From Tellurirhabdus rosea (GTDB lineage Bacteria > Bacteroidota > Bacteroidia > Cytophagales > Spirosomataceae), in assembly GCF_026278345.1 (NCBI RefSeq), contig NZ_CP111085.1, positions 5,424,501 through 5,488,500 on the forward strand: DNA of 64,000 nucleotides, written 5' to 3'. Position numbers and translations under genes: made by a program. Below the pieces are notes generated by a model. The model saw only the letters and a list, made by a program, of their open reading frames with translations. It made no database searches and was not told the DNA's origin. Shown here piece by piece: positions 1 to 49,639 of this stretch (the first letter of the stretch is position 1; every line of letters begins with the position of its first letter).

Positions 1-370
1 CTTCCCGGCTGTCTTTATGACACAGCAGCAGAATGGTCGATGGCAACGGATTGCGGAGGTAGTCCAGCAGCAGTTCGTATTGCTTTTTATCGCGGAACCC
101 GCCGAGGTCCTGCGCCTCTTTGACAATAACAAGCTGTCGCTCCGCCATGAACGGGTACCGGCGGACCATGTTCAGCACCGCCCCGACATCGGTATCTTTT
201 CCGAAAACGACGAACTGATTGAAGCCTTTCTCCGCTTCCGGAATGGCATGGGATTCTACTTCATCCGCTATTTTTTCGATGTAGTACGGCTCGTCCCCAT
301 GCACCAGGTACACAGAGCTAAACTTCTTTTTTCGAATATCCTTGAGAATCTGCTCAATAGCGGGTGTCAT
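1..370 (-). CDS. holA: DNA polymerase III subunit delta, N-terminal part (cut by window edge)
   Basis: Clamp-loader delta subunit, which opens the sliding clamp during replication. Only the first ~123 residues are in the window; the gene continues past the left edge. The start is the ATG at 370 (MTPAIEQILKDIRKKKF), followed by the HolA opening VYLVHGDEPYYIEKI and later FMAERQLVIVKEAQDL and PSTILLLCHKDSRE, the pattern of the HolA N-terminal domain. It follows the ACP phosphodiesterase gene by 16 bp, so it is probably the distal part of the same leftward operon. Identification is by recognised family pattern; length cannot be checked. Confidence 0.85.
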   Translation of the reverse strand, partial: MTPAIEQILKDIRKKKFSSVYLVHGDEPYYIEKIADEVESHAIPEAEKGFNQFVVFGKDTDVGAVLNMVRRYPFMAERQLVIVKEAQDLGGFRDKKQYELLLDYLRNPLPSTILLLCHKDSRE

Positions 371-386
371 ACAAATGCAGCAAAAA

Positions 387-995
387 TCAATCGGGCGAGT
401 TGGCCGCCTCCTCTAACCAGCGGTCGCATTCCTGCTGAAGAACGGGGAAAAACGCCGCGAAACCATCGGCAAAAATAGCATAATTTGCGGTCAGGCAGAC
501 CATCGCCTGGTCCAGATGAGAAGGAAAAACCGTCCGGCGGGTCATGCCCCGGAGGGCGCGGTCGAGGCCGTCCAATGTCTGATAACCCACCAGCCAGTTT
601 CCCCGGATCATGTACTCGGCCAGCCGCTGGGCAGGTGGCGGCATTTTACCGGCACTTCGGGTCAAAACGGCGTAAAAGGAATCCACAAACGGTTCGAGCG
701 AAAGCCCGGTCCGGGTCTGAAAGGTTAAGGCCAGAAAATGGTCGTAGATCAGGTCGAGGGCTACGCCGGCGTACTTGTGGCAATACGGGTGGAGCAGCGT
801 TCTTAACCCGGCCGAAATCGGATGTTCATCCGTCAGGGTGTCGATCCGGCGATGCAGCCGGACTCCCTGCTGCCACGCCGCCGGTAACCCGTGCTTTTCG
901 TGGGCGGGATCGCCTTTGATGAAATCACCGATAAAATTACCGAGGATGATCGCCTCCTGCGGACCGGACAAAACAGTATGCGCCAGAATATTCAT
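387..995 (-). CDS. Acyl carrier protein phosphodiesterase (AcpH/DUF479 family)
   Basis: 202 residues, the usual size for this family. The opening MNILAHTVLSG..GNFIGDFIKG and the segment GVRLHRRIDTLTDEHP are typical of ACP phosphodiesterase, an HD-like metal hydrolase that removes the phosphopantetheine arm from acyl carrier protein (family knowledge). Conserved HRRID and DLIYDHFLA are the likely metal-site segments. The start ATG (993-995) overlaps the stop of the upstream dCMP deaminase gene in an ATGA arrangement, so the two are probably translationally coupled. Cytoplasmic; no signal peptide. The exact substrate in Bacteroidota is inferred. Confidence 0.8.
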   Translation of the reverse strand: MNILAHTVLSGPQEAIILGNFIGDFIKGDPAHEKHGLPAAWQQGVRLHRRIDTLTDEHPISAGLRTLLHPYCHKYAGVALDLIYDHFLALTFQTRTGLSLEPFVDSFYAVLTRSAGKMPPPAQRLAEYMIRGNWLVGYQTLDGLDRALRGMTRRTVFPSHLDQAMVCLTANYAIFADGFAAFFPVLQQECDRWLEEAANSPD

Positions 996-1522
996 AAATG
1001 CGGGTCGCCGATCGCAAAGGTTGCCTCGAAACCGGCCGAGGGCTGGTAGGCTTCCACCTGCACGCCGAATTTTCGTAAAAACTCGACTCCTTCGTCCACC
1101 CCGATTCCTTTGTAGCGGGCGTACGAATGCAAATAAATTACCTTGGCGATTTTCATGCTGTAAATAATCCGGGCGCAGGCGATGCAGGGCGACAGCGTCA
1201 CGTAGAGGGTCGCCCCTTCCACACTCGATCCGTTCTTGGCCGCATACAGAATCGCGTTCTGCTCCGCGTGCAGCGCCAGCGAACAGCTTCCCTTGGAATC
1301 CCGCGGGCAGCCGGTGTCCGGAAATTCCTCGTCACAGTTGTGCGTCCCGGCCGGCGGTCCGTTGTAACCAATGGAAATGATGCGTGTTTCCTTGGTTAAA
1401 ACGGCGCCGACCTGGGCCTTGATGCAATGCGAGCGCCGGGAAAGATTCACGGCCAGCTCCATAAAAATATCTTCAAAACGGGGCTTCAGCCGCTCGTCCG
1501 AATGTGAAAGCTCCTGATTCAA
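992..1522 (-). CDS. Deoxycytidylate (dCMP) deaminase
   Basis: 176 residues. Zinc-dependent cytidine-deaminase fold with the HAE motif at about residues 85-87 (LHAEQNAILYAAK) and the second zinc motif PCIAC at 112-116. The longer TGCPRDSKGSC insert before HAE is typical of dCMP deaminases (ComEB type) rather than free-nucleoside deaminases. It converts dCMP to dUMP for thymidylate synthesis. It lies in the leftward operon, 42 bp after aarF and overlapping the ACP phosphodiesterase by 4 bp. No start ambiguity was seen beyond the first ATG. Confidence 0.9.
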   Translation of the reverse strand: MNQELSHSDERLKPRFEDIFMELAVNLSRRSHCIKAQVGAVLTKETRIISIGYNGPPAGTHNCDEEFPDTGCPRDSKGSCSLALHAEQNAILYAAKNGSSVEGATLYVTLSPCIACARIIYSMKIAKVIYLHSYARYKGIGVDEGVEFLRKFGVQVEAYQPSAGFEATFAIGDPHL

Positions 1523-1564
1523 AGGGATACGATGGATCGTTAATGTAATTCCTATTCGATTTAC

Positions 1565-2899
1565 TCATTTATTCGATGCCATCAAAGCTTTGGACTGAAG
1601 CCACGAGGGTCGGTTGGTTACCACCCGGGCCTTCAATTCGTTCAGCAAAGAGTAGAGCCCGAAGTAGGTCCGGTTGATGTAAAGGCCGTGCTGCGAGCCG
1701 CGGGCGACCTTTGAATTTTTCAATTCTTCAACGCGGGATAATTCATCGGCGAAGGCGTACACGGAATCGAAGTAGGAATCGTCCCCAAAATCAAACTCCT
1801 GAACGCTGAACGGCTTGCCCAGCAGGTAGATCATCTGCTTGAACAGGTCCGAAAAGAACACCTGTTCCCGCGGGCTGTCTTCCGGAACGATGAATTCCAG
1901 GTTGCGGAAAATCTGCACGGTGGCCTCTTCTTCATCCAGCGTGTCGAAATTGATGAGCCGGAAGTAATTGTCGTAAAAGAAGTCAGGAATCACTTTTACG
2001 CATCCGAAGTCAATGACGCCCATGGTGCCGTCCGGCCGCATCAGAAAATTTCCGGGATGGGGGTCGGCATGCACCTGCCGAAGCTGGTGAATCTGGTGGT
2101 CGTAGAAGTCCCAGAGCAACTGCCCAACCCGGTCCCGAATTTCCTGGGACGGATTGGTCCGCAGAAAGTCCTTCAGGTGCAGGCCGTCCAGCCAGTCCAT
2201 CGTCAGAATGCGTTTACTGGAAAGTTCCGGGTAATAGGCCGGAAACACCAGCCCTTCGATATGCGAACAGGCGTTGGAAATTTCCACCGACCGGCGGAGT
2301 TCCAGTTCATAGTCCGTTTCTTCGAGCAGCTTGGACTCCACCTCCCCCATGTACCGGTCGATGTCCCGTTCGTTGAGACCCAGCAGGGAGATTGCCAGCG
2401 GTTTGGCGATCCGCAGGTCCGAACTGACGGAGTCGGCCACCCCGGGGTACTGCACCTTGACGGCCAGCTTTTTGCCGTCTTTAGTCGCCAGATGCACCTG
2501 GCCGATGGAGGCGGCATTGACAGCCCCCATCTCAAAGGTATCGAACAACTGCTGCGGCGATTTCCCGAAAAAGGTCCGGAACGTCTTCACGACCAGCGGC
2601 CCGGAAAGCGGCGGCGCCGAATACTGCGACATGGTGAACTTGTCGACGTAGGCCCGCGGCAAAATGTTGCGGTCCATGCTCAGCATCTGGGCCATTTTCA
2701 GCGCGCTGCCTTTCAGCTCGCTCAGGGTACTGTAAATATCGGCGGCGTTATCCTTGTGAAGTTCGTCCTTGGGCAGGTCAGGCTGCACCAGCTTTTTGCT
2801 GTAATGCTTGAGGTAGTTTCCCCCAACCTTAATACCCGCTTTCACAAACTGACTGGCCCGCGCAACCTTGGATGTGGGAATCTGATTTTGCTCTTTCAT
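1565..2899 (-). CDS. AarF/ABC1/UbiB-family atypical kinase
   Basis: 444 residues from the ATG at 2899 (MKEQNQIPTSKVARASQFV). The frame stays open upstream to a GTG at 2974, but that extension has no family character. ABC1/UbiB signatures are visible: the KxGQ-like segment here reads LKGSALKMAQMLSMD, the alanine-rich loop is AASIGQVHLA, the VAIK-like lysine is LAVKVQYPG, the catalytic segment is HADPHPGNFLM and the metal motif is VIDFGCVKV. UbiB-like kinases support isoprenoid-lipid or quinone metabolism. There is no C-terminal membrane pair. A TetR gene precedes it by about 75 bp, suggesting a co-regulated pair. Confidence 0.85.
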   Translation of the reverse strand: MKEQNQIPTSKVARASQFVKAGIKVGGNYLKHYSKKLVQPDLPKDELHKDNAADIYSTLSELKGSALKMAQMLSMDRNILPRAYVDKFTMSQYSAPPLSGPLVVKTFRTFFGKSPQQLFDTFEMGAVNAASIGQVHLATKDGKKLAVKVQYPGVADSVSSDLRIAKPLAISLLGLNERDIDRYMGEVESKLLEETDYELELRRSVEISNACSHIEGLVFPAYYPELSSKRILTMDWLDGLHLKDFLRTNPSQEIRDRVGQLLWDFYDHQIHQLRQVHADPHPGNFLMRPDGTMGVIDFGCVKVIPDFFYDNYFRLINFDTLDEEEATVQIFRNLEFIVPEDSPREQVFFSDLFKQMIYLLGKPFSVQEFDFGDDSYFDSVYAFADELSRVEELKNSKVARGSQHGLYINRTYFGLYSLLNELKARVVTNRPSWLQSKALMASNK

Positions 2900-2974
2900 G
2901 AGAAAAGGAGTGAAAGAGTGATCCGGCGAACAATGGAAAGGGCAGATTGGCCCATCACCCGTTCGCTGAATCAC

Positions 2975-3649
2975 TCATTTATTCTGGTAAATAAACTTAG
3001 CCAGGTCGAACAGCGAGTCCAATGGCGTACGGCCTATCAGATCGAAAGCGGTGTTGACGCTTTTTTCAATCGCCGTATCCGTCCGCTCGAAGCCTTTGCT
3101 GACATCATTGATCCAGAAATCGAGCAAAAACAGGGTTTGGGTCCAGAGGCCATCGACGTACCGGTCGCCGAGGAACGGCCGTGGTTCAACCTCTTTGCTT
3201 TCCCGGCCTTCGGCCAGCAGGTCGCGGGCAAAATCGTAAAACGCCTCCCGAAAAGGTTTCAGGATGGGGGAAGCGGCGGGGCGATTGGCCGCCCGTGCCC
3301 GAAGAACCGGATTCTGGGGTCGGGCCGTCTCGCGGAGGCGGCCGTAGCTGTACACCGCAAAGCTTCGCTGGGATTTGAGCACTTCAAACCAGGTGAAATA
3401 AAAAGCCAGCAGCTTTTCGCGAACCGAATAGGTCTGGTAAACGGCATCCTCTTCGACCGTCTGCCGGGCCTGGGTAAAAAATGCCAGCCAGACATCGGCT
3501 TCAATGGCTTCGAAGGAAGTGTATTCCTCGTAAAATTCCGCTTCGGTGAGCTTCAGTTTTTTGGCGAACTGGTAAACGGTAGGGGGCGGTGTGCCTTTTT
3601 CAAGTACAAATTCCGTGTATGCTTTACGGATTTTCTCGAGCTTTTCCAT
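2975..3649 (-). CDS. TetR-family transcriptional regulator
   Basis: 224 residues. The N-terminal ~60 residues (IRKAYTEFVLEKGTPPPTVYQFAKKLKLTEAEFYEEYTSFEAIEADVW) fit a TetR helix-turn-helix domain, with the usual Y..F..hx..W ending; the rest is an all-helical ligand/dimer domain. It is directly upstream of the AarF-like kinase (stop TGA at 2975-2977, next start at 2899) and 32 bp after yajQ. Target and ligand are unknown. The proline-rich recognition segment (TPPPTVYQFAKKL) is slightly unusual for TetR. Probably autoregulatory, but no operator was identified. Confidence 0.75.
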   Translation of the reverse strand: MEKLEKIRKAYTEFVLEKGTPPPTVYQFAKKLKLTEAEFYEEYTSFEAIEADVWLAFFTQARQTVEEDAVYQTYSVREKLLAFYFTWFEVLKSQRSFAVYSYGRLRETARPQNPVLRARAANRPAASPILKPFREAFYDFARDLLAEGRESKEVEPRPFLGDRYVDGLWTQTLFLLDFWINDVSKGFERTDTAIEKSVNTAFDLIGRTPLDSLFDLAKFIYQNK

Positions 3650-3681
3650 ACTGGAAAAACGTCCCGTTTCCTCAAAAAGTT

Positions 3682-4173
3682 TTAACTTTTCATATTAACA
3701 AACTGAAGCGGAAACTCCTGCACCATCCGCCTCAGCACAGCAATAACCGCCTGCAGTTCATCGATCTTTTTGCTGGTCACCCTAATCTGGTCATCCATCA
3801 TCTGGGCCGTCACTTTGGGGGCATTGTCCTTGATGATTTTCAGGACTTTACGCTGCTGCTCCTTGTCCAGTCCCTGCCGAACCTTTAGGTCTTTCTTGAG
3901 CCGGGTTCCGGCCTGCTCGGGTTCCACGCTGAAATCGATGCAGCGCCCATCCAGTCCCTGTTTGATGATCCGGCTTACCAGAATATCTTCGATGGAGCGC
4001 AGGCTCATTTCGTTGTCTGTCTCTACCCGGATGGCGGGCGCTTTTTTATCCAGTTCAACGACGGTTTTGCTATTTTTCAGATCATACCGGGTTGTAATTT
4101 CCTTGACAGCTACATTCACTGCATTGTCCAGGGTCTGCATATCGACTTTGCTAACGACATCAAAGGAGGCCAT
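3682..4173 (-). CDS. yajQ: YajQ-family nucleotide-binding protein
   Basis: 163 residues, the full family length. MASFDVVSKVDMQTLDNAVN, then TRYDLKNSK and the C-terminal KVTAQMMDDQIRVTSKKIDELQ are hallmark YajQ segments. The fold is two ferredoxin-like domains. Some homologues bind cyclic di-GMP and act as transcriptional cofactors; that role is family knowledge and not shown for this one. Cytoplasmic. It lies 33 bp after comEC and 32 bp before the tetR gene in the same leftward run. Confidence 0.92.
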   Translation of the reverse strand: MASFDVVSKVDMQTLDNAVNVAVKEITTRYDLKNSKTVVELDKKAPAIRVETDNEMSLRSIEDILVSRIIKQGLDGRCIDFSVEPEQAGTRLKKDLKVRQGLDKEQQRKVLKIIKDNAPKVTAQMMDDQIRVTSKKIDELQAVIAVLRRMVQEFPLQFVNMKS

Positions 4174-4206
4174 ACGAAGATTGAATTGTGGTCATGAGCG
4201 CGCAAG

Positions 4207-6297
4207 TTACTCAAAACGCGTTACAAAGGCACCGGTCTCCCGAGTCCAGAAAATAGACTTGAAACCCGCCGTCCGGGCCTGAATCATCAGCGACTCGGCC
4301 GTCCGGCGCCCGTTTGATTCATCCAGGATAATCGTCCGGGCACCCAGTCGCCCCGACAACTGCTTCCAGTCCCTGACCGCATTTTGAGTAACGACCAGAT
4401 AATCAAGCGGTATGGCTAACCTGACGTTGTTTCTGGCATAAGCACGCCCGATCACGCCGATCGTTTTCCCCCGACGCGCGATGATCTGGATGGACTGGTG
4501 ATGTAAGTCCAACTGGCTAAATGTTATCCCGCTTCCCGGCACCCCCAGGCTATCGAAAGTACCCTGCACGTTGAAGGTAAAGGCAGGGTCAGAGTCGGAA
4601 AAATGAATAATATGGAAAAATTCGGCCGTATTTCCCTGAATCAGATTAATCATGGGCTGCTTCCCGCCCGCATGAATGACCAAAATCCGCTGTTTTTCAC
4701 GCTGCCATTGAAGGCTCAAATTCAAAAAACTCAACACCACGCTAATCCCGATGGCCCACCAGATCAGTCCGGCCCTTCGCTCCATGACGATCAACAGCAG
4801 GCAGACGAGCAGACCCGCCAGCAAAATTAGTTCGAACCCCGTCAGGCGGAAAGGGCCGAGCACGGAGTACGGCAGGCGCTCGGTCAGCAGCACGACCTGA
4901 TTCAGCAGCCACATGCTTTTGGAAAGAAGAAATCCAATAACATCCGAAAGCCCGGTTATCCAGCCGGTCCCCAGTAACGCCATCGCCAGAATCAGGACGA
5001 GCGACGAAAGCGGAATGACCAGCGGATTTGCCAGCCAGAAGTAGGTCGGAAACTGGTGAAAATAATAGACCGCCAGCGGAAACGTAAACAACTGCGCCAC
5101 CAGAGCAACTGACGTCATTTCCCACAACCAGTTGGCCACCCGGTTTTTGAACACGAGGCTCTGGTACAACGGCTTTTGGCAGATCGCCAACCCTCCCACG
5201 GCCAGATACGACAATTGGAATCCCGCTGAGAAAAGTGCGTTGGGGTCAAACAGCAAAATCAGAAAAGCGGAAGCTGCCAGCGTATTGAGCAGGTTGTGTT
5301 GTCGATTCAGCAACTGAGCCAGCAGGAACAGGGAGAACATGCCAACCGACCGCAGAACCGGGGCCGAGAAACCGGTCATCAACGCGTAGAACCAGAGCGT
5401 GCCGGTCACCAGGATAAAAAAGAGCGCCTTCCCTCTCGGTTGCTTGCGCATCCAACCGAAGGCCGCACTTAACACCCAGAACAGGACGCCTACGTGCAGG
5501 CCGGAGACCGACAGCACGTGCACCGCACCCGCCGCGGAATAGGCCTGCTGCAAATCGGGGTCAATGGCATCGCGCACGCCCAGAATCATGGCCTTGACAA
5601 TAGCAAACTCCTGATTCCCTTTCAGATGGTGGGTAAACAGACTATCCGCCCACCCATTGATCCGGTAGGCGAACTGCACACTCCGGGAAGGTGGCTGCAG
5701 GCCGAGCAGTCGCCGTTGCGACGGCTTCAGGAAATGCCTGTGATAGATTTGCTGCGTTTCCAGAAAGGCCCGGTAATCAAACTGGCCGGGATTTCTGGGG
5801 CCTTCGACCCGTTCGGGAGACCCAGCAATCAGCCAGCGCTCCCCGTACCGGGGTGGCGTTGCGGCGGTCCGGCTGAGGTAGCTGAGAATCTGGCCGGAAG
5901 CATTCTGCCAGCCCCCGGCGGTCCTGACCCGTTCGACCCGCAGGACAAACCGGAAGCTTTTTTGCCGTTGCTCCGGCTGCGTCTGCACCCGGGCTTCGTA
6001 CGCGAGTACCCGCCCGGGAAGGTGTACAAGATGGTCGTCGGCCTGCCGCTCATCGTGTGCCATCGACACCAGAAAGCCCAGACTGCTCAGCAGCAGGAGA
6101 CCCGCCAAACCCGTCCGCCTGGCGCCGAATTTCTTTTTAAACAGCAGAAAGAGGTAAAGGAGGGCAAGAAGCAGGACCCCTCCTACCGGGTAAGCTCCAC
6201 CGATAGCCTTGGCCCCGGGAAAAACTGCGTAGCAGACAATCCCTGCCATCAAAGCCAGCACATACCGGAGGAAGGGCTGAGCGGACCAGCGTAGCAT
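4207..6297 (-). CDS. comEC: ComEC/Rec2 DNA-internalisation channel protein
   Basis: 696 residues from the ATG at 6297. The frame extends to an ATG at 6354, but the 6297 start forms a TGATG overlap with the GNAT stop (6297-6299), which favours it. It is a multi-spanning inner-membrane protein with an N-terminal DUF4131-like domain, then the ComEC core with the signature HVLSVSGLHVGVLFW followed by many hydrophobic helices. The family forms the inner-membrane channel for incoming single-stranded DNA in natural transformation. The C-terminal ~180 residues (after LSLQWQREKQRILVIHAGG) lack the HxHxDH motif of the beta-lactamase-like nuclease domain found in longer ComECs. Confidence 0.9.
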   Translation of the reverse strand: MLRWSAQPFLRYVLALMAGIVCYAVFPGAKAIGGAYPVGGVLLLALLYLFLLFKKKFGARRTGLAGLLLLSSLGFLVSMAHDERQADDHLVHLPGRVLAYEARVQTQPEQRQKSFRFVLRVERVRTAGGWQNASGQILSYLSRTAATPPRYGERWLIAGSPERVEGPRNPGQFDYRAFLETQQIYHRHFLKPSQRRLLGLQPPSRSVQFAYRINGWADSLFTHHLKGNQEFAIVKAMILGVRDAIDPDLQQAYSAAGAVHVLSVSGLHVGVLFWVLSAAFGWMRKQPRGKALFFILVTGTLWFYALMTGFSAPVLRSVGMFSLFLLAQLLNRQHNLLNTLAASAFLILLFDPNALFSAGFQLSYLAVGGLAICQKPLYQSLVFKNRVANWLWEMTSVALVAQLFTFPLAVYYFHQFPTYFWLANPLVIPLSSLVLILAMALLGTGWITGLSDVIGFLLSKSMWLLNQVVLLTERLPYSVLGPFRLTGFELILLAGLLVCLLLIVMERRAGLIWWAIGISVVLSFLNLSLQWQREKQRILVIHAGGKQPMINLIQGNTAEFFHIIHFSDSDPAFTFNVQGTFDSLGVPGSGITFSQLDLHHQSIQIIARRGKTIGVIGRAYARNNVRLAIPLDYLVVTQNAVRDWKQLSGRLGARTIILDESNGRRTAESLMIQARTAGFKSIFWTRETGAFVTRFE

Positions 6298-17174: not shown

Positions 17175-17250
17175 GATCTGGTAGCTCAGTTGGTAGAGCA
17201 ATACACTTTTAATGTATGGGTCCTGGGTTCGAGTCCCAGCCGGATCACCA
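17175..17250 (+). tRNA. tRNA-Lys (anticodon UUU), copy 1
   Basis: 76 bases with encoded CCA. Cloverleaf checked: acceptor GATCTGG/CCGGATC, D stem GCTC/GAGC, anticodon stem ATACA/TGTAT with loop CTTTTAA (anticodon TTT), T arm CTGGG-TTCGAGT-CCCAG. Confidence 0.97.
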
Positions 17251-17311
17251 AAAGTAACCTAATTAAAGTGCAAAAGTTCGCTTCGCGAAGCGGACTCCGC
17301 AAACAGACCTT

Positions 17312-17387
17312 GATCTGGTAGCTCAGTTGGTAGAGCAATACACTTTTAATGTATGGGTCCTGGGTTCGAGTCCCAGCCGGATCACCA
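17312..17387 (+). tRNA. tRNA-Lys (anticodon UUU), copy 2
   Basis: Base-for-base identical to copy 1, including the encoded CCA. Start-to-start distance from copy 1 is 137 bp. Confidence 0.97.
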
Positions 17388-17449
17388 AAAAGTAACCTAA
17401 TTAAAGTACAGTGTTCGCTTCACGAAGCGAACTTCTGCAGACAGATCCT

Positions 17450-17525
17450 GATCTGGTAGCTCAGTTGGTAGAGCAATACACTTTTAATGTATGGGTCCTG
17501 GGTTCGAGTCCCAGCCGGATCACCA
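17450..17525 (+). tRNA. tRNA-Lys (anticodon UUU), copy 3
   Basis: Identical to copies 1 and 2, CCA encoded. 138 bp from copy 2. Confidence 0.97.
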
Positions 17526-17587
17526 AAAAGTAACCTAATTAAAGTACAGTGTTCGCTTCACGAAGCGAACTTCTGCAGACAGATCCT

Positions 17588-17660
17588 GATCTGGTAGCTC
17601 AGTTGGTAGAGCAATACACTTTTAATGTATGGGTCCTGGGTTCGAGTCCCAGCCGGATCA
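17588..17660 (+). tRNA. tRNA-Lys (anticodon UUU), copy 4, no encoded CCA
   Basis: Identical through the discriminator A at 17660, but followed by CAACAG instead of CCA, so its CCA must be added by tRNA nucleotidyltransferase. 138 bp from copy 3. Confidence 0.97.
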
Positions 17661-17666
17661 CAACAG

Positions 17667-46567: not shown

Positions 46568-49486
46568 TTATTTCTTTACAAACCGCAGGACTTTTAATAA
46601 GCGCCCCGCCTGGCTGATTCTTAGGAAATAGATTCCAGGAGCTGTCGAGCCTACGCTAAGCGTAGCCGATTGGTCCAGAAAACCGGGCGTGGTGACAGGT
46701 CCCATGACCTGCCCGGAACTGTTTGTTACGCTAAACGAAAGCTGTCCGGGCTGGTATCCGGCAGGAATAGCCAGCGTCAATTCTTTTTCTACCGGGTTGG
46801 GGAATATCCGGAAATCAGAAATTTCGGCCGTTCCGGTCCTGCCTTTTTCTTTGCTCGCCAGTCGCCCTCCATTAGCGCAGGTATACTGCCGGGTGCTCAT
46901 GGTAAACAACTGGGCTGAACCCGCAAAACGGGCCACGACCGTATGCTGTCCGGAGGTCTTGTAAACCGACGGTATGGCGAACTCAAAGCCATGCAGACCA
47001 TTATCATTGAGGTAAGCGCCTACGTCTGTCCGAAGTTTGTCCGCGGTCAGTGTACCGGCCAGTTGTCCATCAATGTACAGATCGACACCAATTGACGTAT
47101 TGGGCTTTGCCCGGTCGGCCGCCCAGCCCGTAATCCGGTCGCAGGAAGCATGATCCAGGTGACCTTCAGGCTGTTGATAAGCCGCAGGGGTCGGAGCTGG
47201 GGAGGGCGTCACGGGTGAATCGGTAGCCGGCGCCGTGCAGCCCCCCACCGTCTGGCCGCTGTTGCTCAGTTCCCGGCTGCTGCCGCTATAACGCACCTGA
47301 ATGGTCTGGTTGCTGTTGCGGCGGAAAGGGGCCGGAATCACAAACTCATAGCCATGCAGCCCGTTGTCATTCAGGTATGCGCCCACGTCCGCCCGGGGCC
47401 GATCAGCGACCACTGTCCCGGCCAGCTGACCATTGACATACACCTCTACGCTTATCGAAACGTTGGGCCGTGAACGGTCCGCCGCCCAGCCCGTTACCCG
47501 CTCGCAGGAAGCGATGTCCAGAAATCCTTCCGGACGCTGGTAATCACCTGTAGGTGCCGGAACCGGCGTGGGAGTCGGGGTAGGAGTTGGAGTAGCCTCT
47601 GACGGGGGTGCCTGGCACCCCCCTACTGTCTGGCCGCTGTTGCTCAGTTCCCGGCTACTCCCCGAAAAACGCACCTGAATCTGCTGGTTTCCTGCCCTGC
47701 GGTAGGCATTCGGGATTACAAACTCATAGCCATGCAACCCGTTGTCATTCAGGTATGCGCCCACGTCCGAGCGTATCTTATCGGCCCTCACCGTGCCGGC
47801 CAATTGACCATTTACGTACACATCGACACTAACCGATACATTCGGCTGGGATCGGTCAGCGGCCCATCCTGTCACCCGGTCGCAAAAACCATTGTCCAGA
47901 AAACCCTCCGGCTGTCGGTAGTTGTCCGTTGCCGAAGGGGCCGGAGCCGGGGAGGGCGTCACGGGTGAATCGGTAGCCGGCGCCGTGCAGCCCCCCACCG
48001 TCTGACCGCTGTTGCTCAGTTCCCGGCTGCTGCCGCTGTAACGCACCTGAATGGTCTGGTTGCCGTTGCGGCGGAAAGGGGCCGGAATCACAAACTCATA
48101 GCCATGCAGCCCGTTGTCATTCAGGTATGCGCCCACGTCCGCCCGCGGCCGATCAGCGACCACTGTCCCGGCCAGCTGACCATTGACATACACCTCTACG
48201 CTTACCGAAACGTTGGGCCGTGAACGGTCCGCCGCCCAGCCCGTTACCCGCTCGCAGGAAACCATCTCGACAAAGCCCTCCGGCGCTGCTGTTCCTGTCG
48301 GGTTTGGCGGGGTGGGTGTACCGGGCACAGCAGCGGTGCTCGTATACCCCGGCTGCCACGGCTGGGAAGTGTTCAGGAAGCCGGTGTTGGTAACGGCATC
48401 TGCCCACAACTGAGCGGCGCGGCGTTTTCCCTCATCGTTCAAATGAACCTGATCCGGTCGGTGCTGTGGCTCCAGTCCGGTATCATAATCCGGTCCGGGA
48501 AAACAGTTGGGTTCAGCGGCCATGCGGTTCTGCGCCTGCCGAATGGCCCAGCGGGGGTCCGTGGTAATATAGGGGGTCTGCCGGTTCACCATCACGGCCA
48601 ATGCCCCATAGTTCAAATCTACACGCGCCTGGTTGACCCAGGTCCGGTAGTATTGCAGCACCTCATCAACGTTTGTGTTGGCATGGTCGTTCTGCCCCTG
48701 GTCGGACAGGATTCCGCGAACCCCAATATCACGTATGTACTTCGTCAGCGTATTTTTTACGTTGATGTAGGGCATCCGAATATCCCAGCGGACAAAACCG
48801 TGTTCGAACCATTGCCCCTGTGATGATTTCGCCCAGTGTTCAAGACTCGTTCCCCCAAATGCCGCATTGAAAATCAAAACCGGTACGTTTAAACGCTGCG
48901 CCAGATGCTGTCCAAAAGCTCCCCAGAAGTGAGCGCTGTGCCCAAACGGTCCGATGCGGGCACCCTCTCCGAGCTGTGCATACGGCGGATTGGTTAGGTA
49001 CTGGGGATCGGCGGTACTCTCGTAAATTTGTGACAGAGGTTGTTGGATGTGATTCACCCGGTCGTCAGAAGCGGCTTCAATGGGGTTTTCATCTCCTTGG
49101 GCCACGGAATGCCCCGCCACCAGGAACACCTCTCCCACGCCAATGCGCTCGACCAGCGTGGTACCCAGTGGCGTTCCGTTGCTGCTGACGGCTCTCAGTT
49201 CGAGATTGTACCATCCGCCGCTCGCTGTGACGCCTCCCGAAAACTGGCCGCTTTCGACGGTATTGTCGATACTTTGCCAATCAATTGTGGTTTGATTGCT
49301 CCGATTAAAGAGGCGTACTTCCACCCTACCCGATTCCGAGGGACAGGTACCTCTTACCTGAATGACGGCCTCATTCTGGTTATTGCGCTGAAAAACAGTG
49401 CGCGAAGAAGGAAAACTTATCGACATCTGGGCATAAACCAGAGACGACAATAAACAGAGTAAAATACAGGTTGCGGTGCGTTGCAT
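46568..49486 (-). CDS. Secreted SGNH/sialate O-acetylesterase-like protein with four repeat modules and T9SS type A sorting domain
   Basis: 972 residues from the ATG at 49486 (MQRTATCILLCLLSSLVYAQ, signal peptide). Residues ~20-115 form a beta-sandwich; ~120-375 form an SGNH esterase with GHSVAQG (nucleophile Ser) near 125-131 and the Asp/His pair in HRPDQVHLND near 342-351. Four ~100-residue modules follow at about 402-501, 526-624, 652-751 and 773-871 (each PEGF/H..C(E/D)R(V/I)TGWAADR..PN...YLNDNGLHG(Y/F)EF), joined by Pro/Thr linkers. The last ~80 residues (FRIFPNPVEKEL..GIYFLRIS) are a type A sorting domain. Likely a surface polysaccharide-processing enzyme. Confidence 0.87.
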   Translation of the reverse strand: MQRTATCILLCLLSSLVYAQMSISFPSSRTVFQRNNQNEAVIQVRGTCPSESGRVEVRLFNRSNQTTIDWQSIDNTVESGQFSGGVTASGGWYNLELRAVSSNGTPLGTTLVERIGVGEVFLVAGHSVAQGDENPIEAASDDRVNHIQQPLSQIYESTADPQYLTNPPYAQLGEGARIGPFGHSAHFWGAFGQHLAQRLNVPVLIFNAAFGGTSLEHWAKSSQGQWFEHGFVRWDIRMPYINVKNTLTKYIRDIGVRGILSDQGQNDHANTNVDEVLQYYRTWVNQARVDLNYGALAVMVNRQTPYITTDPRWAIRQAQNRMAAEPNCFPGPDYDTGLEPQHRPDQVHLNDEGKRRAAQLWADAVTNTGFLNTSQPWQPGYTSTAAVPGTPTPPNPTGTAAPEGFVEMVSCERVTGWAADRSRPNVSVSVEVYVNGQLAGTVVADRPRADVGAYLNDNGLHGYEFVIPAPFRRNGNQTIQVRYSGSSRELSNSGQTVGGCTAPATDSPVTPSPAPAPSATDNYRQPEGFLDNGFCDRVTGWAADRSQPNVSVSVDVYVNGQLAGTVRADKIRSDVGAYLNDNGLHGYEFVIPNAYRRAGNQQIQVRFSGSSRELSNSGQTVGGCQAPPSEATPTPTPTPTPVPAPTGDYQRPEGFLDIASCERVTGWAADRSRPNVSISVEVYVNGQLAGTVVADRPRADVGAYLNDNGLHGYEFVIPAPFRRNSNQTIQVRYSGSSRELSNSGQTVGGCTAPATDSPVTPSPAPTPAAYQQPEGHLDHASCDRITGWAADRAKPNTSIGVDLYIDGQLAGTLTADKLRTDVGAYLNDNGLHGFEFAIPSVYKTSGQHTVVARFAGSAQLFTMSTRQYTCANGGRLASKEKGRTGTAEISDFRIFPNPVEKELTLAIPAGYQPGQLSFSVTNSSGQVMGPVTTPGFLDQSATLSVGSTAPGIYFLRISQAGRLLKVLRFVKK
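46874..48283 (-). repeat. Four ~300-bp tandem coding repeats in the esterase gene
   Basis: Modules on the minus strand at 47984-48283 (A), 47615-47911 (B), 47234-47533 (C) and 46874-47170 (D), spaced 363-380 bp. A and C are almost identical at DNA level over 300 bases at an offset of exactly 750 bp; B and D are more diverged. Confidence 0.9.
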
Positions 49487-49639
49487 AACGCTTAATGTTA
49501 GCTTGTACAAGTTTCCATGTCAAACTTAACAAAAAGCCTTCCCAGGAGCTAAAATGAGCGTTTTTGTTACCATAAAATTTATCATACGTTCATATATTTT
49601 ACTTCAATCGCCTTCTCTTCCCGCCGTTGCGGGGTATAA

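Follow-up and report, generated by a model that had tools for sequence, protein, structure and literature searches.

Within the 64-kb stretch of DNA that was analysed (the window), one gene raises the question of how two repeat modules that do not adjoin each other came to be nearly identical at the DNA level, with a diverged module lying between them. The listed start of this gene is a TTG and the true start is unsure, an ATG being present 8 codons further in. The gene and the parts of its product are as follows.

46568..49510, minus strand: ORF of 980 aa, made up of an esterase, four modules and a sorting tail
48392..49132, minus strand: SASA (PF03629) carbohydrate esterase domain, residues 127-373 (E 3.2e-9, 37.1 bits, Pfam cut-off 24.8)
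47987..48283, minus strand: module M1, residues 410-508
47615..47911, minus strand: module M2, residues 534-632, the skipped one
47237..47533, minus strand: module M3, residues 660-758
46877..47170, minus strand: module M4, residues 781-878, the most diverged, adjoining the sorting tail
46571..46807, minus strand: T9SS type A sorting domain, residues 902-980 (TIGR04183 29.9 bits, cut-off 23; PF18962 28.4, cut-off 27)

The product is a predicted SASA carbohydrate esterase, its PF03629 domain scoring above the Pfam cut-off, and a predicted T9SS type A cargo, as it carries the C-terminal sorting domain. The modules M1 to M4 are 99, 99, 99 and 98 residues long and are joined by Pro/Thr-rich linkers; M3 and M1, numbered here in protein order, are modules A and C of the preliminary description, which followed ascending coordinates. 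The term esterase repeat modules used there is a loose one, as the catalytic domain is N-terminal and the repeats come after it. The whole-protein scans also returned DUF3126 from Pfam (25.1, cut-off 25; no single stretch passes alone) and GxPGS_dom from NCBIfam (19.3 bits, under the cut-off of 45).

The two blocks of 300 bases reported to be near-identical at an offset of 750 bp, 47211-47510 and 47961-48260, were confirmed to align ungapped with 5 mismatches. The best ungapped segment at this offset (scoring +1/-3) pairs 47181-47510 with 47931-48260, giving a shared tract of 330 bp with 8 mismatches, and the reading frame is intact through the modules that bear it. The two copies of the tract and the module starts lying outside it are the following.

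47931..48260, minus strand: shared tract, copy 1, within M1 and the first part of the M1-M2 linker (330 bp, 8 mismatches)
47181..47510, minus strand: shared tract, copy 2, within M3 and the first part of the M3-M4 linker (330 bp, 8 mismatches)
47511..47533, minus strand: start of M3 outside the tract, 23 nt (7, 5 and 9 mismatches in 23 against M1, M2 and M4)
48261..48283, minus strand: start of M1 outside the tract, 23 nt (7, 7 and 13 mismatches in 23 against M2, M3 and M4)

The sharp stop that had been noticed at one end was also borne out: after CTCGCAGGAA, 7 of 23 nt mismatch outside the tract, compared with 5 of 300 inside it (Fisher P 2e-6). The opposite end fades within the Pro-rich linker, about 30 bp past the limit first given, and the length of the tract amounts to 0.44 of the offset (330/750 bp). 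A scan of the whole 64 kb at offsets of 20-5000, with a 300-bp window and at least 210 identities as the criterion, returned four offsets, namely 138 (257 identities), 372 (227), 378 (229) and 750 (295, the strongest), and those of 372 and 378 represent modules of the same esterase gene. The offset of 138 represents tRNA-Lys copies; four tandem tRNA-Lys (TTT) genes lie at 17175-17661 of the window and repeat every 138 bp (3.5 copies, 96% matches).

Comparison of whole modules indicated a DNA identity of 96.0% for M1-M3, with 76.1% for M1-M2 and 76.8% for M2-M3, and identities with M4 of 60.2% for M1, 62.2% for M3 and 62.9% for M2. The corresponding dS was 0.085 for M1-M3 and 0.998-1.56 for the remaining five pairs (1.14-1.56 for those with M4), and over the module body (codons 9-99) it was 0.045 for M1-M3, 1.13 for M1-M2 and 1.01 for M2-M3. 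Thus, the equal synonymous divergence among the four modules that would have spoken against a recent exchange was not found, the dS of the M1-M3 body being 0.045 against about 1 or more. At the five sites where M1 and M3 differ, M2 has the base of M3 at two, that of M1 at two and neither at one, indicating that both copies have mutated since and that the direction of transfer is not readable.

These results make it quite likely that, in this putative secreted esterase and its four tandem modules of predicted Ig-like fold, either M1 or M3 recently had its body overwritten in a non-reciprocal exchange that spared M2. The exchange would be a gene conversion, or a repair that used the wrong module as the template, by which the body of M1 or M3 and the first part of the linker following it would be replaced with the sequence of the other, and M2, situated between the two, would be left in place. 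A single conversion event would presumably have made the tract, with RecA-type homologous pairing as its agent. The near-identity is confined to a tract inside a longer diverged homology, a mark of intragenic conversion. The 23-nt edge of M3 is too different from the other three modules to have been copied from them recently: its origin as a copy of the age of the tract has a P of 7e-8 from M1, 3e-5 from M2 and 7e-11 from M4. This is suggestive of both copies predating the event: M3 (or M1, if that was the recipient) would have existed beforehand, with only its body and the linker start overwritten. A search of the same genome for a donor gave, apart from the gene itself, a best match of 53% protein identity and hence no outside donor. 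Against conversion stand the shortness of the 23-nt edge and the lack of a strain or near species showing the earlier state among the genomes compared, as the sole other genome of the genus (G001) is distant, with a module DNA identity of 49-58%, and has its homologue at a different place. A permutation test on run length was not significant for M1-M3 (P 0.49), because the two match at 127 of the 139 variable sites and few differing sites lie inside the module; it is the 23-nt edge and the linkers that carry the case for conversion.

The explanation most in need of weighing is duplication, in which unequal exchange inserted a copy of M1 between M2 and M4, or in which a unit of two modules was doubled and part of it was replaced afterwards. 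Whole-unit copying is indeed common in the module family, the ratio of identity to offset being 0.91-1.83 in L029 (modules 2-3), L102, L123, L140, L158 and L150, and ABAB arrays exist in it. In the window gene, however, the identity spans less than one whole repeat offset (330/750, 0.44), M2 and M4 are just 62.9% identical, the first 23 nt of M3 are not derived from a recent copy of any other module, and at least two events would be needed. Duplication is therefore improbable here, and the conversion of an existing module is favoured by the foreign 23-nt edge together with identity over 330 of the 750 bp. Gene conversion or unequal recombination skipping a module had both been proposed from the start; the former is now the better supported, by the contrast in dS, the edge and a tract much shorter than the offset, and the latter is less likely because it would copy the whole 750-bp unit and because M2 and M4 are not alike.

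Purifying selection on the protein or on codons, which would hold M1 and M3 alike without any exchange, has the conserved fold of the module family in its favour, yet it has almost nothing to recommend it at this locus, since M1 and M2 share 82% of their residues with a dS of about 1.06, and since the M1-M3 body dS of 0.045 gives way to 7 mismatches in 23 nt immediately outside, an abrupt edge that contradicts such an explanation. Repeats of this length can be mis-assembled, and one copy of the tract might have been filled in from the other. Such an assembly artefact is very unlikely, given a genome assembled as one contig of 5,582,807 bases (5.58 Mb; 99.93% complete), five sites of difference between the copies, different flanks and linkers, and an open frame. 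On these grounds, dimer duplication, selection without exchange and an assembly artefact were all rejected for the window gene; the observation is right, and its reading as conversion is probably right.

The statement that the intervening module and M4 are diverged was upheld by the identities of 60-77% but needs a qualification, in that M2 itself reads as a mosaic carrying short stretches near-identical to M1 and M3.

47738..47769, minus strand: a stretch of 32 nt that M2 shares exactly with both M1 and M3, module columns 143-174
47628..47656, minus strand: a stretch of 29 nt that M2 shares exactly with M3, module columns 256-284, of which 23 are also identical to M1

When the 139 variable sites were shuffled, the longest shared run had a P of 0.0003 for M2-M3 and 0.004 for M1-M2. 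Against M1 and M3, the synonymous sites of M2 are saturated over codons 9-47, whereas only 4 mismatches occur in 57 nt at codons 48-66 and 2-3 in 30 at codons 84-93. Over codons 48-66, M4 shows 13-14 differences in 57 nt from the other modules, most of them synonymous, and its synonymous sites are saturated there, indicating that the likeness of M2 is not explained by protein conservation alone. Older and shorter exchanges involving M2 have probably happened too.

The genus was represented by two genomes, that of the window and G001, with one genome per species. The homologue in G001 (L029 883-4995, minus strand, 1370 aa) has four units, each consisting of a He_PIG Ig-like domain and one module; its repeat unit is about 660 bp, and the last module is the most diverged, as in the window gene. 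Modules 2 and 3 of L029 are 98.9% identical over 0.99 of the offset, which indicates tandem copying. An attempt to establish orthology by synteny failed, as the 729-aa ORF that neighbours the window gene has its counterpart at 3.64 Mb of G001 and the esterase homologue is at 4.43 Mb; the G001 gene, not being at the syntenic place, is therefore termed a homologue only. Another frame of G001 (L036, 988 aa) has two touching modules of a distant type with a DNA identity of 76.5%. A tree built from the protein sequences of 35 modules places M1 with M3 (98/96) and M2 next to this pair (97/98), and it sets the four modules of G001 apart as a separate group (98/99). A scan of genome contigs with the protein gave two loci, one in a Rudanella MAG (33%) and one weak match.

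A parallel to the window gene was found in the L066 and L067 esterases (frames of 1137 and 1141 aa in genomes G090 and G099), in which an Ig stretch of 206 aa lies between modules 1 and 2 and the identity of these two modules extends over 0.40 and 0.42 of the 915-bp offset. In L066, the Ig-like stretches that follow module 1 and module 2 have a protein identity of only 59%. The dS between modules 1 and 2 within a gene is 0.015 and 0.030, whereas that between the two species, L066 versus L067, is 0.266, 0.244 and 0.351 for modules 1, 2 and 3. As judged from these substitution rates, the pair represents concerted evolution at the level of the module. The protein tree is less tidy, L067_m1 grouping with the L066 modules and not with L067_m2, and the parallel is clear in dS but not in this tree. 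Homogenised modules that do not touch recur in the module family; some genes owe them to conversion and others to the copying of two-module units in tandem.

To place the module itself, it was sought by profile, scoring the best 25 or 13 candidates per genome, so that absence from a genome is no proof. With profile A1 (best 25 candidates scored; E 1e-6), 73 of the 200 genomes sampled from the bacterial family gave a match, and with a second profile (best 13; 1e-10) 31 of 390 genomes from the order did so, the 31 listed all falling within that family. In the genus g17 the module family seems to be greatly expanded, with up to 160 first-look candidates in one genome, of which the best 25 were scored. 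Searching of 12 module rows singly gave only weak Pfam matches, one Big_3_5 (7.5e-4) and one Big_7 (0.0066), and no NCBIfam family, and neither the whole protein nor the module profile had a match among the PDB sequences. Structure prediction gave a best model with a pLDDT of 84.9 (the other four, 58-72), which is all-beta with one short helix and resembles the Ig/FN3-like sandwiches of glycosidases and biofilm proteins. The best match of this model by VIA-align had a Z of 9.0 (5z1a, rmsd 1.9, 73 aligned), 17 of 998 chains reaching a Z of at least 8, and Foldseek gave none at E 0.001. The module is thus one without a confident Pfam or NCBIfam match that models as an Ig-like sandwich, and it may serve as a spacer or in weak sugar binding. 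Among the titles and abstract openings covered, most subscription journals being outside their scope, nothing was recognised as this module family or as an alternation within a single family.

For module likeness, we surveyed 82 loci (81 and the window) with 389 modules and 89 ORFs having at least two modules. The loci came from high-scoring or array-rich genomes, are therefore non-random and include many mutual homologues, and L102 and L123 may be one locus split over two contig ends. The survey excluded L037 and L009 (no module found), L010, L113 (the longer L154 being used instead), L141/L142, the shorter or other loci L001-L028, L038-L065 and L071-L100, and pairs with fewer than 60 aligned codons. 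A DNA identity of at least 90% was found in 0 of 177 touching pairs (those with a gap of at most 50 residues; maximum 86.0) and in 65 of 193 pairs two apart, and it occurred in 8 of 101 consecutive pairs with a longer gap and in 154 of 804 pairs three or more apart. Counted by ORF, the values were 0/31 for touching, 8/55 for longer-gap consecutive, 9/47 for two apart and 8/34 for three or more apart, giving a Fisher P of 0.0096 for touching versus two apart and 0.046 for touching versus gapped neighbours, with related ORFs counted as independent. When only genomes of one or two contigs were considered, the counts were 0/83 for touching and 36/78 for two apart.

Most of the highly identical pairs at lag 2 came from homologous genes of the genus g32, to which eight of the ten genomes with many or several matches in an array search belong (the other two are g5). 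In L143-L147 and L149 of g32, two module classes alternate (ABAB), touching neighbours having a DNA identity of 50-66% and modules two apart up to 92-100%, depending on the array. The arrays of L143, L144, L146 and L147 contain 10-22 modules with a lag-2 identity up to 100%. The preliminary description suggested that the number of modules may vary between strains; in this different gene of another genus, the homologues L146 and L147 have near-identical N-termini and 10 versus 12 modules, the difference being one two-module unit. L148 has a longer repeat period, and L150, L151 and L158 are irregular or partial. In L150 and L158, the arrays so tested, the identity spans more than one offset, which indicates tandem copying of a dimer, unlike the short tract of the window. 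Permutation of module order was not significant for the window (0.49), L145 (0.12), L148 (0.21), L150 (0.52) or L158 (0.62).

Much of the contrast between touching and two-apart pairs can be put down to shared descent and to the expansion of dimers, and a neutral account is available, in which only the two-module register recombines once A and B have diverged. It may also be, although we consider it rather doubtful, that exchange is frequent but selection against misfolding keeps touching modules divergent, so that homogenisation survives only between modules that do not touch. If this were true, arrays would gain and lose length in two-module steps and still obey the neighbour-divergence rule, with the window as the minimal case.

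Taken alone, the window event is an ordinary one, representing one more intragenic conversion, in a module family without a confident database match. Its value is as a lead to the wider pattern of identical non-touching modules, which is the part worth following: natural arrays exist that reach a DNA identity of 100% between modules two apart but not between touching ones (0 of 177 at 90% or more). If the neutral account, the expansion of a diverged two-module unit, were excluded, such arrays could test the limits that misfolding sets on the evolution of repeat proteins.

Among known systems, that of paralogous prokaryotic sequences which evolve in concert through gene conversion is outlined in PMC6053082, in which long-lasting cases are called rare. 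The window tract and, with a test on orthologues, L066/L067 resemble those systems in that copies within a genome are more alike than orthologues, but the units here are domains inside one gene and not the paralogous genes outlined there. The periscope proteins presented in PMC8201768 have neighbouring domains that are highly identical (82-100% in SHIRT arrays) and so break the neighbour-divergence rule. The present proteins are similar to them in being surface-exposed or secreted, in having stalk arrays of similar domains and in a DNA likeness that permits intragenic recombination. They differ from the periscope proteins in that the touching neighbours surveyed are at most 86% identical in DNA, the likeness occurring two apart or across another domain; adjacent highly identical repeats, by which periscope proteins are recognised, are absent from the window gene (M1-M2 76.1%, M2-M3 76.8%, M3-M4 62.2%). 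The g32 ABAB arrays are similar to the E-G5 arrays of SasG/Aap, as introduced in the same source, in alternating two unlike units and varying in repeat number, although E and G5 are different domains and A and B are members of a single module family. The window gene itself is no regular ABAB array. The rule that tandem domains diverge from their neighbours, proposed in PMC4660218 as a means of avoiding stable misfolds, agrees with the divergence of touching, predicted Ig-like modules observed here, a pattern that also has a neutral explanation. Hypothetically, avoidance of like neighbours by selection would place these arrays in line with PMC4660218 and in contrast with the periscope proteins of PMC8201768.
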